From Ceratothoa steindachneri (lineage: Eukaryota > Arthropoda > Malacostraca > Isopoda > Cymothoidae): DNA of 64,000 nucleotides. The translations under genes and the position numbers were made by a program. Every line of letters starts with the position of its first letter. The first letter of the stretch is position 1. Under the pieces are notes generated by a model. That model saw only the letters and a program-made list of their open reading frames with translations, did no database searches and was not told the origin of the DNA. This document shows, piece by piece, positions 2,096-54,820 of the stretch. The stretch spans positions 207,421,233 through 207,485,232 of the forward strand of contig OZ018319.1 in the NCBI GenBank assembly GCA_963969495.1, written 5' to 3'.

Positions 2096-2475
2096 AACTA
2101 CAGAATTAGGACCGAAAAGACCTTAGGGTACACTCAAGTCTAGTTCGAAAGATAACACTGGTCTGCGTCAAAAATGTACCTTAGGTTTTCTCTATTGTTT
2201 CTTAATAAGATTGACCTTCTGAATCCGTATATGCGTCTGGTTTTCTCTATGAGGTCCAGTTTTTTGCGATACAGGGGGTGATAATAATTTTATGGTTTAT
2301 TCATGTCCTATATTACATCAAAATTTCAGTAGTTTTTGCACTACTGTTTTCGCAGTAAATTTCGTGTACACTTTAAGTAATTATGTTAATAAGTTTATAT
2401 TTTTGTAGGTTAGAAATTGCTTAGCATTATAATAATAAGAATAATAATGATAGTGGTTGAGTTAAAAATAAACAA

Positions 2476-2771
2476 AAATGTAAGAATAGCTCCGACAGAC
2501 TTTGCTATGTTTGCGGCAAAGTGACTTTTTCCGAGCAGCAATTTACAATCTCTCCTGTAATCAAATCTTTGTATCATGCATAATTTGGGGTAAGACTAGG
2601 AGATCAAGATGAAGGTTTTGCACCACATATCTGCTGCAAGGGATGCTACAAAAGTTTAAGACGCTGGAGTCAGGGCGAACAGAAGTCTCTCTCTCCTTTG
2701 GTGTTCCCATGGTGTGGAGAGAGGGCAAGGACCAGACTACGGGCTGCTATTTTTGCATGACCATCTTAAAG
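2476..2771 (+). pseudogene. Exon 1 of a degenerate multicopy arthropod gene
   Basis: The conceptual protein opens with a zinc-site-like segment: CYVCG near 2510, then the block LGDQDEGFAPHICCKGC at about 2600-2650, an RRW motif, and after a frameshift near 2695 the block FGVPMVWREGK followed by CYFC near 2750. I recall this cysteine pattern as the N-terminus of an unnamed protein family present in many copies in arthropod genomes, with no function known to me. An in-frame TAA at 2581-2583 replaces an expected tyrosine before the FG of the LGDQD block. The exon ends at AAG followed by GTGAGC at 2772, a good splice donor in phase 0. The downstream exons lie beyond a retroelement at 2.86-6.0 kb. 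Confidence in the family match is high; function is unknown. Confidence 0.75.
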
Positions 2772-2777
2772 GTGAGC
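2772..2777 (+). promoter_or_regulatory. Splice donor of intron 1
   Basis: AAG followed by GTGAGC at the end of the first exon matches the U1 donor consensus. It sits exactly where the conserved coding block stops. Confidence 0.65.
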
Positions 2778-2855
2778 ATTGTATCAAGTATTTAAACTTT
2801 CTGCATTATACTGGCTCCTGAAAATGTCATTATTATGCATAGACTTATGTCGAAG

Positions 2856-3415
2856 TATGGCCAAGTGTACGGGAATAGGCGAAAAAAGGCTCTAAGGTAG
2901 GCCAAGCAAGGCGACAACTGTTATAGTTATAAGATTGCGATTTGAAAAGATAGCGGCAAAAATAAATTTTAATACACACTAAATAAAAGGACAACAAAAA
3001 TATGGATATATATGGGTACATGAATAAGACGGAATTAGGTTCCGAATACTAATTAGATAACCTGGGTTATTGAATGGTTATATTGGGAGATTTAGGGTAG
3101 TGAATCATTTAGTTCCTTTTAACCTCGAGAGTAAAGCGGGGCAAACTTAAGGGAGCTCTTGGTGACCTTGATTGCTCACGGGTGTAGCCGAAAACCTGTC
3201 ACCGGACGAACTTCAAAGGGGGAAGGTGACTTCTCCAAACTCGAATCGAGCGAGCTATCGGGCCTCTTGTCCTCAAGAGGTTACCGGTTGAACTTCGGAT
3301 GGAAGGGATGACTTCTCTAAACTCGGATTGAGCGAGCTAACGGGCCTATTGTCCTCAAGAGTTCACCAGAAGAACTTCGGAGGACGACTTCTCCAATCCC
3401 TGATCCGAAGGCGAC
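2856..3415 (-). repeat. LTR-like direct repeat, 3' copy (truncated)
   Basis: About 560 bases align with 5381-5975 in the same orientation. Shared blocks include the start gtatggccaagtgtacggga, the stretch around 3030-3065 (tagataacctgggtta) and the end near ttctccaatcc. The copy lies just downstream of the minus-strand protease frame, as expected for a 3' LTR of a minus-strand element. It begins only 84 bases inside the intron of the surrounding gene. No clean TG...CA termini or target duplication could be fixed. The pol genes that should separate protease and LTR are absent. Confidence 0.6.
3200..3410 (-). repeat. 82-bp tandem repeats inside the LTR-like copy
   Basis: Units starting near 3200, 3282 and 3364 share accgg-gaacttcg, acttctcc-aact, gagcgagcta and cctcttgtcctcaagag. 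The third is partial. Related units occur at about 5820-5975 in the other copy. Such arrays are common in the U3 part of LTRs, but that role is inferred. Confidence 0.65.
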
Positions 3416-3420
3416 TACGC

Positions 3421-3667
3421 CGGCCCCTCCGGTGAAGTACTGGCACTGTATATGGCACCGTACCACTGGAAATCTGGTGGCACGACCTAGAAAGTCATGC
3501 ACCAACGCAAACCTGTTATGCTGGGGACTTACGGGGGGTAGTAGTTTGTTTGAACCTACTATACAGGTCGAACCTGTATCTCTAACGAAGGTCGACACTC
3601 GGCAACCATTTACTGCGCCATTTTCAAACTCGAGCCCACCGAAGGAACTCTTGTTGAACAGGAAATT
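3421..3667 (-). pseudogene. Retroelement aspartic protease (pro)
   Basis: Read on the minus strand in a frame different from gag, this stretch holds the retropepsin active-site motif DTGST at about 3575-3590, preceded by a hydrophobic TFVR. The frame is open from the stop at 3668-3670 and overlaps the gag 3' end by about 44 bases (3624-3667). In translation direction it is offset +1 from gag, which suggests frameshifted expression as in Gag-Pro-Pol polyproteins. After the motif, roughly 50 residues remain before the reading frame runs into LTR-like sequence near 3420, so the protease C-terminus and all of reverse transcriptase, RNase H and integrase are missing. The first codon GTG at 3598 is not expected to be a real start. 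Confidence 0.65.
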
Positions 3668-4782
3668 TTACCTGTTGATCCGAGGAAGAGGGAGCAGGGG
3701 CCGCTTGCGATGCGGCTGGCAGATTAGGTGATTGGGCAGCAGAGATTTTATGGAGCTGCTGACTCGACGAGGTGCTCATTTGAGAATTTTGGGGGCAATT
3801 GTAACTTAAGTGCCCAGGGGTGCCACACGTAAAGCATACAATTGGTCTACGGGTGTAGTTGCTAGGCGTGGAGGGGAGTAACGGGGGCTTCACGTCCTTT
3901 TGTTCTCTCGGTGGGTGAGGCCTGTATTTGCTCGGCGCCTGCACTTTTACGAAGCCGTTGTTGCCTTTGGGTTGGCTTCGGTTAAACCTAAACTTGTGTT
4001 TGGAGGAGGGGTGATGGTTCTTCTTAACTTCCTTGTGGTAGAGGTCGTGACTGGAAGCGTGAAGGTCGGCTTCTTCCATACGCTCCTTGAAAGTGGACGC
4101 TCTTCTGTCCGCTATGAAGGCCCTTGGTTCGCGAGGGAGGGTCAATATCATTTGATCCCTTAGAATGAATTCAACTAGCGACTCATAATCATTTGATACT
4201 TGGACGGAATCCAGCCGGAATTGGAAATTACGCCAAAGGGTGAAACCAAATTGCCTGTAGGTTTGGCCTGGCTGTATTCGCGCGGAGGGGAATCTAACCC
4301 TATATAATCCTGGATTCATGTTAATATAAGAAAGAAGTTCTGCCTTTAGGGTTGAATAATCAAGGGTGGCCTCTGAAGGGAGCGAAAAGAATATGTCGCA
4401 AAGACGAAGATTCAAGAGTGGAAGTAGCCGGATGACACCATGTGATTCTAAGACCCAATTGTTGACTTCGAAGATCTTCTGGAAGTGCGTTAAATAAGAG
4501 GAAAAATCTTGTCCAGTTTTGCATGCGGGGAGTTTTAGTGAGGGCACTTGAGCCTGTTCATTTCGAACTCCTACGGAGTTTATCTCGACTTGGTCACAGC
4601 TTATCTCTCTCTCTCTCTCACGCTGCCTAATTCTTTCATTCTCTTCTGCTTCTCTCTGTGCTTTTCTTTCTTCCTCTTCTCTCTTTGCTTTTATTTCTTC
4701 CTCTTCTCTCTGTGCTTCGCTTTCTTCGACTTCTGCTTCTCTATGTGCTTTTCTTTCTTTGTTTTCTCTCTGTGCTTTTCTT
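3624..4782 (-). CDS. Gag-like capsid/nucleocapsid protein of an LTR retroelement
   Basis: A long minus-strand frame, 307 codons from the GTG at 4547, stays open upstream to a TAA at about 4783. The upstream part encodes a charged, heptad-like segment of repeated REEEE, KAQRE and REAEE that should form a coiled coil. The middle, roughly residues 1-165 counted from 4547, looks like a SCAN/Gypsy-type capsid domain, with LYRVRF and LVEFILRDQ-like stretches. Residues 238-251 form a CCHC zinc knuckle (CFTCGTPGHLSYNC), typical of nucleocapsids that bind genomic RNA. Pro follows in another frame. No in-frame ATG is visible, so the true start is lost or altered. LTR-like repeats flank the gag-pro block. 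The lineage is probably Ty3/gypsy-like, by gag architecture only. The frame is surprisingly open given the missing pol. Confidence 0.75.
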
Positions 4783-4800
4783 TATGCACGTTCGTTGCGT
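4590..4800 (+). repeat. Pyrimidine-rich imperfect repeat encoding the Gag coiled coil
   Basis: Units resembling ttctctctgtgcttttctttc recur about six times. On the minus strand this is the codon-level repeat of the Gag N-terminal Glu/Arg-rich helix. The plus-strand Phe/Leu-rich ORFs here are antisense shadows. Confidence 0.7.
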
Positions 4801-5267
4801 TCCTCTTCCTGGACGTAAGCGATTAAATCTTTCCGAGATAAGCTTAGGATCTGCCATTGCTTATAAAAGCGATCGAATGAAGACATCCCGGATATGCTAC
4901 TTCCGCCCTTTGCACACGGAAAAGCTAACAGAGCTATGGAAGCTTTACCCAAAACAAAAAGGATTAAAATTCATAGTAAAAATCGGGCAAACTCACAGAA
5001 AAAATAACTAAATAACTAACGGAGGAATCTAACTCACCACACAAAAAAGGGCGGTTACTATTAACACTTAGCTAGTATCCTCTTGTAAGGAACTAGAAAA
5101 ACTGTAAACACACCACACAAGAATGGGCTTAAAAATTGGTTGTTACCCGTTAATCAAAAAGAAAGTTGTCCTAATTTATTGGTGTTCAGATATTCTTGGT
5201 AGTGCAGCTAGTATCAATTGAACTTTTTGCTTCAAAATCAGGCGGGGAAGACCCAAAGCCGGACGCC

Positions 5268-5271
<4 letters not shown>

Positions 5272-5358
<87 letters not shown>
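5272..5358. repeat. (TA)n microsatellite
   Basis: About 87 bases of uninterrupted TA, immediately inside the right-hand LTR-like copy of the gag-pro element, where the primer-binding site would be expected. Confidence 0.95.
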
Positions 5359-5360
<2 letters not shown>

Positions 5361-5380
5361 TTATATATCTTTATATCGCG

Positions 5381-5975
5381 GTATGGCCAAGTGTACGGGA
5401 ATATGATCACACAGGCTCTAAGATAGGCCAAGCAAGACGACAAATGTTATTGTTCTAAGAATGTGATTTGAATAGATAGTGGCAGCTGCGTGACCAAGGA
5501 ATATACCGAACAACCACAAAAATAGATTTTAATACACACTAAATAAAAGGCACAACAATAAATAGGGATATATATGGTTACATGAATAAGACGGAATTAG
5601 GTTCCCAATACTAATTAGATAACCTGGGTTATAGAATGCTTATAATGGGATATTTAGGGTAGTGAGTGATTTATTTCCTTTAAACCTCGAGAGTAAAGCT
5701 GGGCAAACTTAGGGGAGGTTTTGTTGACCTTGATTACTCAAGGGGGGTAGCCACAAACCAGCAGCCGGTTGAGTTACTTTCTCGAACTTGTGTTTTGCGA
5801 GATGCGGGTCTCTTGTCCTTAAGAGGTCACCGGACGAACTTCGAAGGATTGGAGGGGGGGGGGGGGAAATGACTTCTCTACATTCGGGTTGAGCGAGCTA
5901 ATTGGCCTCTTGTCCTCAAGAGGTCACCAGAAGAACTTCGAAGGACGGCTTCTCCAATCCTTGATCCAAAGGCGG
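5381..5975 (-). repeat. LTR-like direct repeat, 5' copy
   Basis: Same-orientation copy of 2856-3415, placed upstream of minus-strand gag and so at the 5' LTR position. It carries some short insertions relative to the other copy, for example around 5485-5515, and a G-run at about 5855. Similarity stops near 5975. The GC-rich DNA continuing to about 6505 may be further LTR (U3) sequence lost from the other copy, which would fit a deletion removing pol together with part of the 3' LTR. Confidence 0.6.
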
Positions 5976-6600
5976 TTAAGAAAGGCTGACGTTGCCTCAC
6001 AAGACTCTTCTCTTTGACCCGAAGATACGGGTGTGATGTCCAGCTCTTCCGTGGCTTGCGACCTCTCACTCATACTTCTCGGGAAAGAACTTCGTTGAAT
6101 TGAACTCCTTTCGGGGAAGTGGACTCTAACCAAATCTGTCAACAATCCTCGAGAGGATGCGTATATTCCTGGAGTTTTCCAAAACAGGGAGAGAGAAAGA
6201 GAGGCCTTCTCGACCCCTCGTTATCGGTCCTGACAAACCGAGCGTCTCCTTGCGGGGAAGTGTCAATGGCAGATATCATCGGGCCAGACGGATAACCAGC
6301 GGCTGGAGCCATAAAAGCTGTTTGCGGCCAACCTACAAAGTAATCTCCCGACCTGAGGGAGGGGGGGATAGGATTGAGACGGCTGGGAGGTAGCCTTCAA
6401 TTTCAGTGTCATGCCCCGGTGTGAATTTTTGTGATGACCTGGCGGCAATTCCAAAAAGGGTGAAGTCGGAGGGGGGGAGGGAGTACGGCTCGCTTTCTCT
6501 CCCAAGTAATATCTTAGGAGGTGGGGAAATAATATTATTCTAGGGGATACCTCTACAACTTAGCATAAAATTAAAAACTATCATAGTTCACTTCAGAATG
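5976..6600. other. GC-rich segment next to the LTR-like copy, no gene
   Basis: This DNA is richer in G and C than its surroundings and has several G-runs (6360, 6470). It could be the rest of the 5' LTR or element leader. No coding motif was seen. Confidence 0.4.
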
Positions 6601-6682
6601 ACATATCTTTTACTAAACATGTGTGTACTATCTGCAACTCCAAATCAATTCCTTTATGTAATATGCAATTATATTTTCCACA

Positions 6683-7306
6683 CGTATAAATAAGAAAAAT
6701 AAACATAGTGTGGGATATCCGGATGTTCCTCCTGCCAACAAACTCCTGCCCCATGGTCCAGGAATTCCTATACCTTCTCCCCCTGAACATATATAGGTCC
6801 ATGGAGAGATTAATATGGAAGTTGATCAGGATTGTGACACATCTGAGTCTTATCAGGTTTCCACACATGATATGGTGGCAAGACGATTCACTCAAGTTCA
6901 GTTCAATGACCTGACCAGGGATCTGGGTGTTTCATAGGAGAATGCACAACTTCTTGGCTCTCGACTTCGTGAAATTAATCTTCTCGCTAAACAAACAACA
7001 TTTTGGGGGTATAGAAATAGAGAACAAGACTTTCAAAGCTATTTTTTATAGCATTTTTCCAGCTCTTTAGTATACCGCGCCAATATTCTAAGGTTTTGTG
7101 AGGCCCTCCAACCCACTAGAATGGAGACTTTTTATCGATTCCTCCAGTAGAAGTTTAAAAGCTGTGTTACTGAATTTTTGTAACAAGATAGCTTCCGTTC
7201 CTATAGCCATTCAATCCAACTTACTGAAAGTTATGAAAATATGAAAAAATTGCTGGATGCAATAAATTACTCTAGCTATAAGTGGAGGATATGTGGTGAC
7301 TTAAAG
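6683..7306 (+). pseudogene. Exon 2 of the degenerate multicopy gene
   Basis: The frame restarts with NKKNKHSVGYPDV and a proline-rich PHGPGIPIPSPPEH block at about 6750-6790. The FNDLTRDLGVS block then leads into an in-frame TAG near 6936. Around 7125 follow EWRLFIDSS and SLKAVLL, and at about 7270-7306 YKWRICGDLK. A second frame change lies near 7230. These blocks match, in order, the family of exon 1. The exon ends at AAG followed by GTAAGA at 7307, an excellent donor. No clean AG acceptor stands at its start: coding similarity begins around 6680 after ttttccacac, where an AG may have decayed to AC. The exon is therefore old and non-functional. Confidence 0.75.
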
Positions 7307-7722
7307 GTAAGATCATTTTACACTCGGCATTTTTAAGCTCTTTGATATTGACATTTTAATTTTTAATTGTTAATACTTGTTTACATCTTTTGATCAATTT
7401 ACATCTTACAAGAATGCAAATCTAGAAATCATGAGTCATTTCTGTGTTATATTCTTTGTTGAAGTGTGTCCCTATAGGTTAATGCATCCTTTTGGGTAAA
7501 TAGGGAACTTATTCTAATTAAGAGGGTATACAACATAACTCAATAAACTCAAATTAAGATGTACATATATCCAATTAGTTCAAATACAATGATTTAATGC
7601 ATCCGCATACAGAATTTTTCAGTACATATTCATATTCTTATTGTTTTAAGGAATATTACTTTGAATTTGTTTTTAGAAATATTACACTTTAAATTTACAT
7701 ACCCTGCTAAATTTATTTTCAG
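7307..7722 (+). other. Retained GT-AG intron 2 of the pseudogene
   Basis: The intron starts AAG/GTAAGA and ends TTTATTTTCAG/GTAG, with a ctgctaaat branch-like motif about 20 bases upstream of the acceptor. Removing these 416 bases joins GDLK to VVSLILG in frame. An intact intron shows that the copy moved or duplicated as DNA and is not a processed retrocopy. Confidence 0.75.
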
Positions 7723-8510
7723 GTAGTGTCTCTTATACTTGGGATGCAAACAGGCTACACGAAGAATCCCTGTTTCCTATGCTTATAGGACAGTCGTGCA
7801 GATAGTATGCACTATGAGAAGAAGGTTTGTCCTCCACGAGAAGCATTTAGAATTGGATCAAACCATGTTATATCTGAACCTTTAGTGCCTCCTCACAAAA
7901 TACTGCTTCCTCCAATGCCTATAATGATTGGCATAATGAAAAGTTATTGCAAAACCCTTAATAAAGAAGGCCAAACTTTTAAATTTATTTTTCAAAAATT
8001 TCCACAAATCAGTGACGCTAAGCTCCATGCGGGAATTTTTGATGGACCTATGATCAAAAATTTGATGAGAGATCAGCAGTTTAAGACATCAATGGCAGAC
8101 ATAAAAAATATGCCTGGAAAGCTTTCAAAGCTCTAGTTAACAATTTTCTAGCAATAAAAGAAGCCCAGAATATGTTGCCCTAGTCAATCAGCTCCTAACA
8201 AGTCTCAAACATTTGGGAGTTCGAATGTCTATAAAGATACACTTTTTACAGTCCCATCTGGATTATTTTCCCGAAAACTGCGAGGATTACAGTAAAGAAC
8301 AGGGGAAAAAGATTCCATCAGGACATCAATAAAATGGAACCCAAGTACCAGTGTAAATGGGACGTAAACATGCTTGCTGACTACTGTTGGTTTTAAAGCG
8401 TTATGCACCAGATGATAGGCACAAACGAAAATCGTCAAAGGCGTCTTTTCTTGGAAATTACAATTATTTTTTTATTATTTTGTATTCTTTATTTTTTTGT
8501 TTTAGTAAAA
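7723..8510 (+). pseudogene. Exon 3 of the degenerate multicopy gene
   Basis: The frame opens with VVSLILGMQTGYTK and CFLCL, then a TAG where tryptophan is expected in the next codon (about 7767). A long open stretch from 7780 to 8136 carries PLVPPHKILLPPMPIMIG, NKEGQ and AGIFDGP. After frame changes near 8115, 8170 and 8310 come LVNQLLTSLKHLG, HLDYFPENC, RFHQDI and YQCKWDVNMLADYCW, then after one more near 8395 RHKRKSSKASFL. The order and spacing fit the C-terminal half of the same unnamed arthropod family. At least two stops and four frameshifts make it a pseudogene. Function is unknown; high copy number in other genomes suggests, but does not prove, a transposon origin. Confidence 0.8.
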
Positions 8511-10188
8511 GGATTATAGTTTACATACGTTTATTCCTGTTTCTATGATATAACAATAATAATCCATTATTAGATAGAGAATGTGTTTTGAAATTTTTTT
8601 TTCTCCGGAAAAATGAGGTAAACTCAATAAAAATGGTATATGCTGTACTGAGAAAATCTGACCCGATTGAACAAAAATACATTCAATCTTGAGCACAGGA
8701 GGTTTGATTCATTAAGAAACCACAAAGAAACCCTGAGGAACATAAATTCTTTTCGAACGCAGGCCTGTGTAATTAGGTCTACACACCTCAACCTTGAGAG
8801 GAATGCTATTAATTTGTCTATATGGATCTGTTACGCACTTAACCACGCGTTGTTAATTATTATTTTATTATTATAAAACAATACAGAAAAGGTTTTAAAC
8901 TCTAAAACCACCTCAAAACTATAAAACACAAAAGGGGTAAAATTATAAGGGACAATAAAATGAGAAAACAAATCTATCAACGAGATAACATTTAATTAAT
9001 TGTCACCACCTCTGGCAATCGAGACATTCTATGCCATTGGGTGGGTCAAAGGATTAAATAAGAAATGAGTAGGAAACAGACATCAATGGCGAAAGGTTTA
9101 TCCGCAGCTACAAGGGAGAGGGTCGTAGGGCGTCTAAAACCCACATTGGTGATGTAGGGTTCAAACGAAGGGTAATAAGTGGAGACAGATTGTATGAGTG
9201 TACCTCGTTGTCAATTATTCCGGGTAGTTTTATGCATTATTATATTGTCGCGGTTCTTGGTTTCAGTCTCTGCTATGCTTGGACCCGACTTTGAGGCAAA
9301 GCAGAAATTGAAGTTAAAAAGAAGTTCAGGAATGTTTGAGAGAAAAGAGCAAATAGACCGATGGGATTCTTTTAAACCAAATAAAGTGTTCAAAATCAAA
9401 ATCCATCTACTCATAGGATGGATATTTTTAATAAATATAATGAAAACCAACGAACGCACCTGTGTGGGGAAAAATGAATGACGGTAGAGTGAAGAATTTA
9501 TGGAGTAGAAAATTTTCCTAAAATAACCATTCTCGGAGTGGAGGTGTTCAGTAGGTCGGATTCTCTATTTTTCTAAAATATTCTCGTGTTCTAAAACCAT
9601 TTACTCCGATCTCACAGGAAATATTGGGGGTGGGGAACCAAGTTTTTGCTGTAGTGGGAATAAAATATCGTTTGCAGAGAACAAAATAACCACAGCTTTT
9701 GGTGATGCCATTCGCGATAACACGCACGTTCAACGCTGGAATCATACTAATAAAGAAACAGAAAATTAACGAATAAATTGCATATGTGAAGGGTCGAAAT
9801 TTAGAAATAATACGTTGGATGCGACGCTTAATACTGAGGAGGAAAATACCATGCGAGAGAAGAAGATCAGCAAGTTAAGAGTTGGTAAGCGATCAATATT
9901 TTATAGCCAAAATTCCTCCAAAGATATTCCAACCGAGTCATGGGCTAATATTCCGACCAGAGAAGCTTCAAAACCTGTGTGAATTAAAGGTTTTAACATG
10001 TTTCATGTGTTGTAAGAGTAGATATAGGTAGGGGATAGAGTAAGGGGGTGTGGACAGATAGCGGAAAGTAGACCAGTAGTGAAAAGAGAAAGAAGTGTGG
10101 AAGGGGGCAAAGAGATGCTAGAGCCTGGTGATCAGGCCTATCGCTTTTAAGTATTTTTGGTTTTGTTGTTCCTTTGTTGTCTTTGAGT

Positions 10189-10619: not shown

Positions 10620-11918
10620 ATTTAGACGATATCATCATCCAATTCACGATTAACTATTTCCAGTATATTCTTTGTTCGTTCTTCTATGACAATGTTAACC
10701 CAGCTTCCGGGTGCAGCTCTTCCTGGCGTATTCTTTCTCTCCTCCGTGTTCCTGTAATTAGGTACGTACATTTATTCTGCACCACTTGTAGTTTCCTCTT
10801 TTGTGTCTTCGAGACACACGAGAGGGTGGAAGCGGAGTATATCAGCCTCAATCTTACAAGTGCATTGTAGACCATTTTCATATTGCTTTGAAGAAGAAGG
10901 CCACTGCAGCAGTGGCCTTGGTGATTCTTTATTGGAAGTGCTTCTTGTTCTCGGATGAGGTAATCTTCATTCCGAGTATATTGGACTCCGTGCTGTAGGA
11001 ATAACATCTATCCCCCACCCTGACGTCGTAAAGTAGTCTCCTGCCTATGGGGACTACTTTGAACTTTTCCGGGCCTCGTAGGTGTTAAGATTTTCAATTT
11101 CTGCTGCTGTCATACGAGCTTGCCAAGGCGCATTCCTCCATGGACAAGTGATTATCTGGTGAAATCATCGGCGAATTGAATATTGAGGCAAGTGGGGCTT
11201 ACAGGGGCTGAGACATCCGCGGTGTAAATCAAATAGAGAGGCCCGCAGTGATCGGAAACTTTGGTCCGTCCGTGCACCCTAAACTGATATACGCCGCTCT
11301 CTCCATGACATAGTCACAAAGAGTACATTCTAAGTTTTCACTTAGGCCCAGTTGCTACAGCGTATCAAACGCCTTTGATATATCCCGACAAAGAATGTTC
11401 ACGTAACTCTTTTCCCGTTTTGCTTGGGCTAGTTTTTCCGTGATGACATTAATCGCCATCTCCGTACTTCGCTTCCTCCTAAACCCGAATTGATGTGGGT
11501 TGAAGAGGGAGTTCTTCTCCAGGTGAGACACCAGTCTTTTGTTGAGGATCTTCTCGAAGAGCTTCCCACCAAATTCTAGAAGGGAAATTGGCCTGTAGCT
11601 CTCCTTCAACGTTGGGTCCTTTCCGTGCTTAGGCAATAAAATCATCTTAGCCGTTTTATAAGCATCTGGAAAGTATCCCGTGTTCAGCCAGGCGTTATAT
11701 ATTCTTCTCATCCCTTCGATGACATTGGCTGGTGCCTTTTCAAAGTTAAGTTTTGTAAGCCCCGATTGTACTGGGTCTTTTTTTGGAATGAGCGGAGCGC
11801 GCCGAGTAGTTCTTCTTCGGTAATCTCGGCGTCTCCGTCGCGCACGTTCGCTTCCAATTGACGCATGTGTGCGTCTTGCACTAAGCAAAGAAATTCCACC
11901 GACGCGTTTGTACGTCAT
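10620..11918 (-). mobile_element. Family A LINE, ORF2 RT and C-terminus (fragment)
   Basis: Minus-strand reverse transcriptase of a non-LTR retrotransposon. A frame covering 11355-11750 carries the finger/palm blocks AWLNTGYFPDAYKTAK, YRPISLLEFGGKLFEKIL, QFGFRRKRST and RDISKAFDTL. The next 300 bases hold, in shifted frames, a box with a FADD catalytic motif near 11150 (NIQFADDFT), intact at the two aspartates. A frame at 10684-11007 carries the thumb and the tail with KLQVVQNKCTYLITGTRR. ORF1 and endonuclease are missing, so it is 5'-truncated near 11.9 kb. The start at about 11900 is scrambled by a frameshift around 11770 (EEELLGALRSF is in another frame). Closest relatives in the window are the copies at 43.3 and 50.5-60.6 kb. 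Confidence 0.8.
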
Positions 11919-11929
11919 ATGAATTCCCT

Positions 11930-12225
11930 CTTATGGTTATTTCAGAAGGCGCAGTGCTACGTTAAATCCATTTATGTCGTGTAGCACTGAAAAAAAGGTC
12001 ACTTGCGGTTCTGCTATTCGGTGTCACCTCTCATAATGTCATTATACTCACTAATTTCCTAGTGTTGGTAATGACCGTGTTAACGACCGATTTCCACCTC
12101 GTGTTTACCCAAAGGTAAGGTAAAAATCAAGAAACGAAGTTATGTGTCAACGAATTCATTTATTCCCGTAAAAATTGAAGAAAGCGGATATTCACCTACA
12201 GCGAACATCGCTTCAAAAAATATTC
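11930..12225. other. No gene seen
   Basis: AT-rich spacer between the LINE fragment and the TTAGG-like block. No motif found. Confidence 0.5.
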
Positions 12226-23479: not shown

Positions 23480-24851
23480 GGCTGTTACTAATTTGTTGTG
23501 GTAATATTCATGTGAATCCTGGCCCTACTCTCTGGCACACTGGTCGAGTTCTTTACTCCAATGTAAGAGGGCTACACAAGAATCTCAGAGACCTTACTGT
23601 TGTCAGTCGGTCCTATGACATAAGTATATGGGCAGAATCTTTCGTTTCCGACTATCGCCACAAATCTGAGCTTAAGTTTCCTGAGTTCTGTCACCCCCTG
23701 CTTTTTCGCCGTAACCCACGAAATCGTCAGTGGGGAATGTCCATCTATATTCGTGATGGTTTCTCCGCTCATAGAAAAACTAACTATGAATGTGGCTGCC
23801 TTGCGCATTTAGACCCAAATACACAACTTTTATATTTTGGGGCGCTTATCGCAACCCCGATTGCGATGATACCATATATGGTTGCCTATTAACAGCCATG
23901 GCCACTAACTATTTTGATGATCGCAAAGCAGTTTTTGTTTTTGTTGGTGGTTTCAATGTTCACCATCGTGAATGGCTTGAGTCTGCAACACCAAAAGATA
24001 TTCATGGTCGTGCAGTATATGATTTTGCTAGTGTTTCAGGCTGTTTACAGTTGGTGTCCGGCCCTACTCATCATGCTGGTAACTGTCTCAACTTAGTACT
24101 TACGAATGTACCTGATATTGTTAAGGCAGAAATTAATGCACCCATAGGTACATCCGATCACTCTGCCCTTACTATCAAACTTGACCTTAGGCAAACTGTC
24201 CCTTCTTATACTATTACGAAAGAGATTTATCTAAAAAACACGGTTAACTTGAATAATGTCCATGATGATGTTTCCAGGATCCGATTGGGGGCCATTCTTT
24301 GCAGTGCTGAGCCCATGTCCGCTTTCAATGAACAGATACTTAGTATTATTTCTCGCCGAGTCCCTGTTAAAAGGATCTCACACCGGTTCAATGATAGAGC
24401 CTGGTTTACATTTGAATGCAAAGCTGCTCGGGATGCCAAACAGGCAGCATACCGCCACTGGTCTCAGCTATGCACAAGAGAATCTTTGAACGAGTATGTT
24501 CTAGCAAAATCTCAAGTAGAGAGGATTTATCATGATGCGGAAAGGGAATATCTCAGTTCTGCCAAGGATAAATTGTTGAGCGCCACTGATCCACATAAAT
24601 GGTGGTCCACCCTTAAATCAGTGGTCTTTGACTGCAGCTCATCACTACCCTCACTGTTCTCTGAGAACGGTCAACTTATCACGAGTCCAAAGGAAAAAAC
24701 TCATCTTTTGAAGAAGCACTTTGACTCTAAGCTTAGTAGAGAGCAATTAATTTGCAATCAAGAAATGGCCATTATGCCTATTCTTAATAAAATTGCATTT
24801 CGGACCAAAGAAGTGGAGAAGCTACTCAATGCTCTTGATCCCCAAAACTGA
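23480..24851 (+). pseudogene. Family B ORF2: endonuclease and linker
   Basis: The endonuclease opens with NPGPTLWHTGRVLYSNVRGL; YSNVRG corresponds to the first APE block and WAES to the Mg-binding Glu. After a frameshift near 23810 come FVGGFNVHH at 23937-23963, where the usual GDFN aspartate is Gly, and GTSDHSALT near 24150, the intact terminal SDH box. Then follow the NDRAWFTFECKAARDAKQAAYR linker and the HKWWSTLK motif. The 353-codon frame 23790-24851 is open to LLNALDP, where a deletion of roughly 30 residues plus a frame change breaks entry into the RT. The D-to-G change alone should abolish nicking. Confidence 0.85.
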
Positions 24852-53149: not shown

Positions 53150-54820
53150 ATGTTAAGAGGAAATAGAAAAAAGAAAACAAAGATATCCATTAATCATAAC
53201 GAAAAAGACATACAAGAACCGCCAAAAATAGAGATGGCATTCAGAGAACATTGGAGTGAGTTTTTTAACATATCTCATGAAGAAAATATGTATTTCGACC
53301 ACGAACATGAGAACACTATTGTGGAAGACTTAGAAAGTAACAGAGAAGAAATAACTCCCAACTACACTGCCTCTCCTCCAATATTATAAGAGCAAGAAGT
53401 GGAATCAATAACCCTAGAGGAACTTAAAGCTACTATAAACGCTACTAGACAAAGAGCCCCAGCGATTTCGAGATTTTACGTGAAAATCTAATAAGAACCT
53501 TGAATATCTTTCTAGAAAAAATGAAGGACATTTTTAACGCGTCAATCACCGCAGGATACTTTCCCGATGCCTTAAAAAGAGGAAAAATAATATTCCTACA
53601 CAAACCAGGCAAACCCCCGAATCAACCTGGAAACTTCCGACCCATAACTTTACTCGAATCCATGTCTAAACTCGTAGAGAAAATGATTGGAAAGAGACTC
53701 AGTCAACATCTCGAGGCTAACAATTTAATCCCACGATACCAACACGGGTTTAGAAAAAGAAGAGGAACCGGAACAGCACTGGCACTACTTGTCGAAGCGA
53801 TCGCAAAAGCTAAATACGAAAAGAGATACATAGACCTTGTCCTAAGAGACCTACAGAAAGCATTTGACAAGATAAGGCGGTTTGGACTTAAATATATGAT
53901 TAAAAGGACTTCCCAAAATTATAACCAAATGTTTGAGCGATTACGTAAAGGATCGCAAAGCACATATCGAAATAGAAGACCACCGGGGACCCGAATTCGT
54001 GATATATCAGGGACTGCTTCAAGGGTAATGCCTTAGTCCGTTACTATATAGCATATACACAAGGGATTTACCAGAGCCAATTTTTGAAAGTACTACATAC
54101 ATAAAATTCGCGGATAATATCTCGATAATCACCAAAAGTCCTTATAGGCATCTACCCACGATGGCTATAATAACTGGAGCAGAAATCGTAAATATCAACA
54201 ACTATGAAAAGAAATGAAAAATCATAACTAATCCAGACAAGTTTATAATCGTACCAGTGGAAAGACGCAAAACATCGCGAGTACTTATCGAAGAAAAGCG
54301 ATATCGATACAAACAAGAGGGCAAGGTTCTCGGGCTAAAAATAACTAACGGATATAAAAAAAATATTAATGAAAGAATAAACTTAGCAAAATATAATCTC
54401 ACAAAATTGTTCCATCTCAGAAGTTTGAACAAAAAAAAAAATTAAAATTTCTAATGCATTATGCAGATAGGTATTATTGTATCCAACAATACCTCTCAAT
54501 TCCCTACATAAGACCAACACCGTCAAGCTTCAAGGGTACAAAACAAAGAAGTATTATTAATTACCAATTCGAGGCGAATAGAACAACGTAGACAACAAGA
54601 TCTACATCAAGAAATTAACTTAGAACCAATAAACACAATTATTCACAGAAGGGGTACGAAAATATGGGAAAAACTAGAAGAACTTCTAAACGGAAAAGAA
54701 AATAGAAAATTGGAGCTCTCCATTAATTATCGGAGGAACAATAGGGGAAATTTTAGAAGCGGGAAACGGATAGTTGGAGTCAATCCCGCACCAATGCTTA
54801 CGTAGAATATTGATCACAAA
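53150..54820 (+). pseudogene. Family A copy A ORF2 reverse transcriptase and C-terminus
   Basis: RT blocks are ASITAGYFPDALKRGKIIFL, NFRPITLLESMSKLVEKMI, QHGFRKRRGTGTALALLVEA and LRDLQKAFDKI. In a shifted frame come DRKAHIEIEDHRGPEFV and LSPLLYSIYTRDLPEP, then the catalytic box KFADNISII at about 54106-54132. FADD has become FADN, so the second catalytic Asp is lost. The thumb frame has KQEGKVLGLKIT. The remaining C-terminus is broken by stops. The 178-codon frame 53500-54036 is the longest intact stretch. Confidence 0.85.

Follow-up and report, generated by a model that had tools for sequence, protein, structure and literature searches.

Here, we analyzed a 64-kb stretch of the genome of the isopod Ceratothoa steindachneri (contig OZ018319.1, hereafter the window, at its full length of 64,000 nucleotides), in which a preliminary description had reported a decayed three-exon gene at positions 2476..8510 carrying a retroelement in its first intron. 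On the basis of our results, the unit reaches from 2156 to 8769, beyond the extent given before, and is with high probability (about 0.94) a dead copy of a Chapaev3-group DNA transposon, with a long terminal repeat (LTR) retroelement nested in intron 1. Thus, the earlier observation was confirmed and its interpretation partly supported: the decay and the exon-intron layout stand, whereas the word 'gene' does not, as the unit is a transposon and its former three-exon 'gene' encodes a RAG1-like transposase with the published hallmarks of Chapaev3. The ends of the copy are as follows.

2156..8769, plus strand: whole copy including the nested retroelement, very probably a Chapaev3-group DNA transposon (paralog-shared ends, CAC...GTG termini)
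2153..2155, no strand: 5' target-site duplication TAA, preceded by A (equal to 8770-8772)
2156..2169, plus strand: 5' terminal inverted repeat CACTGGTCTGCGTC (11/14 positions shared with the 3' repeat by visual count)
8756..8769, minus strand: 3' terminal inverted repeat, minus-strand reading CACAGGCCTGCGTT (comparison of ends)
8770..8772, no strand: 3' target-site duplication TAA, followed by T (equal to 2153-2155)

Once the nested insert is subtracted, the transposon is ∼2.9 kb long, and used as a query within the window it matched only itself. Three DNA searches of the whole 3.93-Gb genome (529 contigs) returned 1,693, 2,677 and 2,800 first-look candidates, 40 of which were scored in each search, so that all counts of places are lower bounds. 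Scored places other than the window showed 87-94% DNA identity, which excludes chance as an explanation of the observation. We then compared 20 paralog loci of 10 kb (L017-L036), that is, half of the 40 places that best matched window positions 2300-2900; because of this choice, exon 1 and intron 1 are biased to low divergence. The match to the window started at 2147-2157 in 19 of the 20 loci (at 2303 in L026) and stopped at 8770-8778 in 16, ending earlier in L018, L019, L020 and L031. With the window included, 21 copies were available; after these five loci, each with one unrecognisable end, had been dropped, 16 remained in which the two ends could be located. CAC...GTG inverted-repeat termini were present in the window and in most copies with both ends. 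A 3-bp flanking duplication was equal in 15 of these 16 copies, compared with 100 of 240 mismatched copy pairs, and duplications of 2, 4 or 5 bp were equal in none of the 16. One of the equal pairs was CTA and one copy had an unequal pair; the base before the duplication was A in all 16 copies and the base after it was T in 15. The exact string formed by TWA and the first 25 bases of the element occurred 1,322 times in the genome (670 forward and 652 reverse), whereas the reversed version of this pattern occurred nowhere genome-wide. Some of these exact 5' ends may belong to short non-autonomous derivatives and not to full-length copies.

The interior of the element consists of the remnants of a transposase gene, which were delimited mainly by comparison with the protein P0001.

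2468..2771, plus strand: exon 1 remnant, N-terminal cysteine-rich domain, putatively Chapa-type (P0001 comparison)
2772..6683, plus strand: intron 1, ∼0.2 kb without the 3.7-kb insert (donor GT kept, acceptor AG lost)
6684..7306, plus strand: exon 2 remnant, transposase region with both Asp positions conserved in homologs (five stops against P0001)
7307..7722, plus strand: intron 2, 416 bp, GT-AG (splice-site alignment)
7723..8461, plus strand: exon 3 remnant spanning the C(2)C, LH and H(4)H regions and that of the conserved Glu (several frames, stops)

As had been described, three blocks of a single protein family follow one another here in order (∼2468-2771, 6684-7306 and 7723-8461), and all three exon translations matched the same family, with P0001 residues 2-100 aligned in exon 1, 103-314 in exon 2 and 312-557 in exon 3. 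Exon breaks placed in this way fell near residues 102 and 314 and recurred at or near these places in the paralogs; in the copies examined, the introns are kept at the same positions. Transposon copies retain their introns because copying is by DNA. The two splice donors noted earlier do carry GT (2772-2773 and 7307-7308) and the second intron ends in AG at 7721-7722, whereas the window copy has AC instead of AG at the acceptor of intron 1. Among the window and the 20 paralogs, GT was found at donor 1 in 20 of 21 and at donor 2 in 20 of 21, and AG at acceptor 1 in 19 and at acceptor 2 in 17, two others being gapped there. Such sites would have allowed splicing of an intact transcript.

None of these genes appeared to be intact. 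The window exons carry stops and frame changes, and exon 1 has lost the homologous start codon and shows a frameshift and one stop against P0001. All 20 paralogs were broken or incomplete against the same protein. Of seven additional loci outside this count (L038-L044), L042 was likewise broken, whereas the remaining six, probably compared in the wrong orientation, yielded no match on the plus strand. Third codon positions were not enriched in differences among paralogs in any of the three stretches tested, consistent with neutral decay once the copies had inserted. The median substitution difference between the window and its paralogs was 9.5% (range 8.5-29.5%), and the highest values came from two loci without the 3' part, L018 (29.5%) and L020 (22.6%). 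Among 40 pattern stretches of viral contigs in an alignment scan, none coded for a relative.

The protein family had been thought to belong to arthropods, yet among the 120 homologs listed the named ones were spread across animals. In 45 homologs chosen from these 120, the C(2)C, LH and H(4)H motifs were present together with the DDE residues, and D255, D309 and E504 are the probable catalytic residues. The AlphaFold2 model of one homolog (P0009, modelled in place of the window copy) had a RAG1/Transib-type catalytic fold, and the nearest solved folds were RAG1 and HzTransib. RAG1 was found by fold only; sequence searches of solved structures returned nothing credible. No Pfam model reached its cut-off among the family members scanned, and no Pfam transposase family was among the matches of the scanned paralog piece and the 45 homologs.

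Two other explanations were considered. PIF/Harbinger elements make TWA duplications, so that this feature alone would fit Harbinger as well, and with RAG1 and HzTransib as the closest solved folds a Transib element might also be proposed. Nevertheless, it is very unlikely that the element belongs to one of the superfamilies with similar traits (PIF/Harbinger, CACTA/EnSpm or Transib): besides the lack of Pfam transposase families just described, Chapaev3 is the group for which CAC/GTG ends, a TWA duplication lying between A and T, the C(2)C-LH-H(4)H motifs and a protein of ∼556 residues have been published in combination (PMC4079192). A decayed three-exon host gene or gene family spread via segmental duplication, the frame of the preliminary description, would account for the conserved exon-intron layout and for the occurrence of the protein family in many animals, but we reject it because, in differing flanks, the copies begin and end at exactly the same points, with inverted repeats and 3-bp target duplications, and the 1,322 exact 5' ends and the RAG1-like fold of the product also stand against it.

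The first intron of this Chapaev3-type copy contains the retroelement, in antisense orientation as reported before.

2848..6557, minus strand: decayed LTR retroelement, TG...CA, 3,710 bp (flanked by ACTTA; gag and protease-like remnant)
2843..2847, no strand: left-hand copy of the retroelement's target duplication ACTTA (sequence comparison)
6558..6562, no strand: right-hand copy of the retroelement's target duplication ACTTA (sequence comparison)
2848..3413, minus strand: left LTR portion, ∼566 bp, shorter than the right (BLAST and MAFFT)
5374..6557, minus strand: right LTR, ∼1,184 bp, left boundary approximate (BLAST and MAFFT)
3627..4781, minus strand: gag open frame, 385 residues, CCHC zinc knuckle (PF00098, E 8.4e-6)

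In all 20 paralog loci the match to the window stopped at 2844-2847 and restarted at 6558-6562 in adjoining paralog DNA; this contiguity across 2848-6557 indicates that the segment is an insertion absent from those 20 copies. Direct terminal repeats, TG...CA ends and a 5-bp duplication, all traits of LTR retrotransposons, were found. The element begins 76 bases after the end of exon 1 at 2771, not 84 bases past the donor as first stated. The label 'gag-pro' was fair because, in addition to the gag frame with its CCHC knuckle, a DTG protease-like motif occurs in another frame; a short text pattern applied to the element's strand only detected no reverse transcriptase-like motif. In the shared part of the two LTRs, 82 of 549 positions differed (14.9%, MAFFT), and the two main BLAST pieces gave 65 mismatches in ∼542 aligned positions (12%). 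Both figures are higher than the 9.5% that separates the window transposon from its paralogs, even though the retroelement must have arrived later. Either the repeats were already unequal at insertion, or they have mutated faster.

Taken together, the history of the locus is probably as follows. The intact ancestor would have carried a single gene of three exons. Its product, a transposase of ∼555-560 residues, would have combined a RAG1/Transib-type catalytic core with a cysteine-rich domain at the N-terminus. This enzyme would have excised the element at its CAC...GTG ends and inserted it at A-TWA-T targets, with duplication of TWA. After a burst, the copies decayed without detectable selection, and the LTR retroelement, probably at a later step, entered intron 1 of the window copy, duplicating ACTTA.

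The N-terminal domain, in which cysteine pairs are conserved, deserves a separate comment. A Chapa zinc domain is described for both Chapaev3 and RAG1 (PMC4411706), and we observed weak matches to the Pfam model RAG1_imp_bd in one paralog piece (E 0.17) and in 1 of the 45 homologs (E 0.091). In 14 of the 45, zf-AD matched the N-terminus below threshold at E values up to 0.1 (best 0.0033); P0023, P0031 and P0095 were among them. A rescan of 10 homologs gave zf-AD at E up to 0.3 in five, and in four of these the matched stretch was the same (for example, residues 13-69 aligned to positions 2-60 of the 75 in the profile, scoring 18.1 bits where the cut-off is 28); other rescanned homologs matched BIR or the Rad50 zinc hook instead. 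When a profile built from ten N-terminal pieces was searched by sequence against solved structures, no ZAD came up; the Pfam scan of the paralog piece from L033 gave no zf-AD match, and a literature search pairing Chapaev with ZAD found no paper. Homology between the Chapaev3 exon-1 domain and the ZAD of the large family of insect ZAD-zinc-finger transcription factors is a weak link and seems rather improbable. If true, ZAD would be a domesticated piece of Chapaev3, in parallel with RAG1, itself a domesticated relative.

Other features were also recorded. Elsewhere in the window, reverse transcriptase fragments lie at 11355-11930 (minus strand; PF00078, E 5.2e-14) and 53449-54036 (plus strand; PF00078, E 2.6e-12), and a 353-residue open frame at 23790-24851 (plus strand) had a weak, below-cut-off match to PF14529 (endonuclease-reverse transcriptase; E 8.1e-5). 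In the genome, COX1 was located at 4636-5976 of a mitochondrial-like contig of 29,607 bp (C529), where it reads in genetic code 5: the serine of MNNMSFW, a residue that we take to be constant, is encoded by AGA, as would suit an invertebrate. Among the 7,997 scored candidates with the most shared words, the best named matches to this COX1 (flies, a stink bug and an Octopus record) had 80-84% identity. A second COX1 copy, in two pieces, is on a large contig (C11:170834712-170836051), and TGA occurs inside it there too.

With regard to known systems, a Chapaev3-type copy with a nested retroelement is ordinary repeat biology and a known kind of element. The nested insert resembles gag-bearing LTR retrotransposons in its TG...CA ends, 5-bp duplication, CCHC gag and DTG motif, whereas its LTRs are unequal in length and a simple text search found no reverse transcriptase motif. 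RAG1/ProtoRAG/HzTransib-type systems make a 5-bp target duplication, in contrast with the 3-bp one of the window transposon, in which the transposase gene was the only gene recognised. The overall catalytic-core fold predicted for P0009 is that of RAG1, ProtoRAG/BbRAGL and HzTransib, at only ∼11-14% sequence identity in structural alignments. The closest likeness is to Chapaev3 itself, for which CAC/GTG termini, 3- to 4-bp duplications and C(2)C, LH and H(4)H motifs have been reported, with TWA duplicated between A and T in the elements examined; every hallmark from that paper that could be tested was found in the window element (Zhang et al., 2014; PMC4079192). Within this group, Garfield and Merrow share with it CAC...GTG, TWA between A and T, and the three motifs, and their proteins have 556 residues in a silkworm copy and 562 in lamprey copies, the latter being 2,289-2,455 bp long (PMC4079192). 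Copy numbers in a table there range up to >254 and 281, compared with 1,322 exact 5' ends here, for which full length is not implied. According to the same paper, Garfield and Merrow have two exons, with an exon 1 of 75-78 residues where given, and most other Chapaev3 elements appear to have a single exon; the present gene has three, interrupted near residues 102 and 314, a comparison of layouts and not of intron sequences. No three-exon Chapaev3 appeared in titles or abstract openings among the literature matches listed, Repbase Reports not being searched, and this layout would widen the range of gene structures described for the group. A protein family left uncharacterized in databases (for example, in Clavelina, Oratosquilla and Ranitomeya) is also explained, since it bears Chapaev3 transposase hallmarks, and the gene catalogues of such genomes may hold transposase copies as unknown genes.
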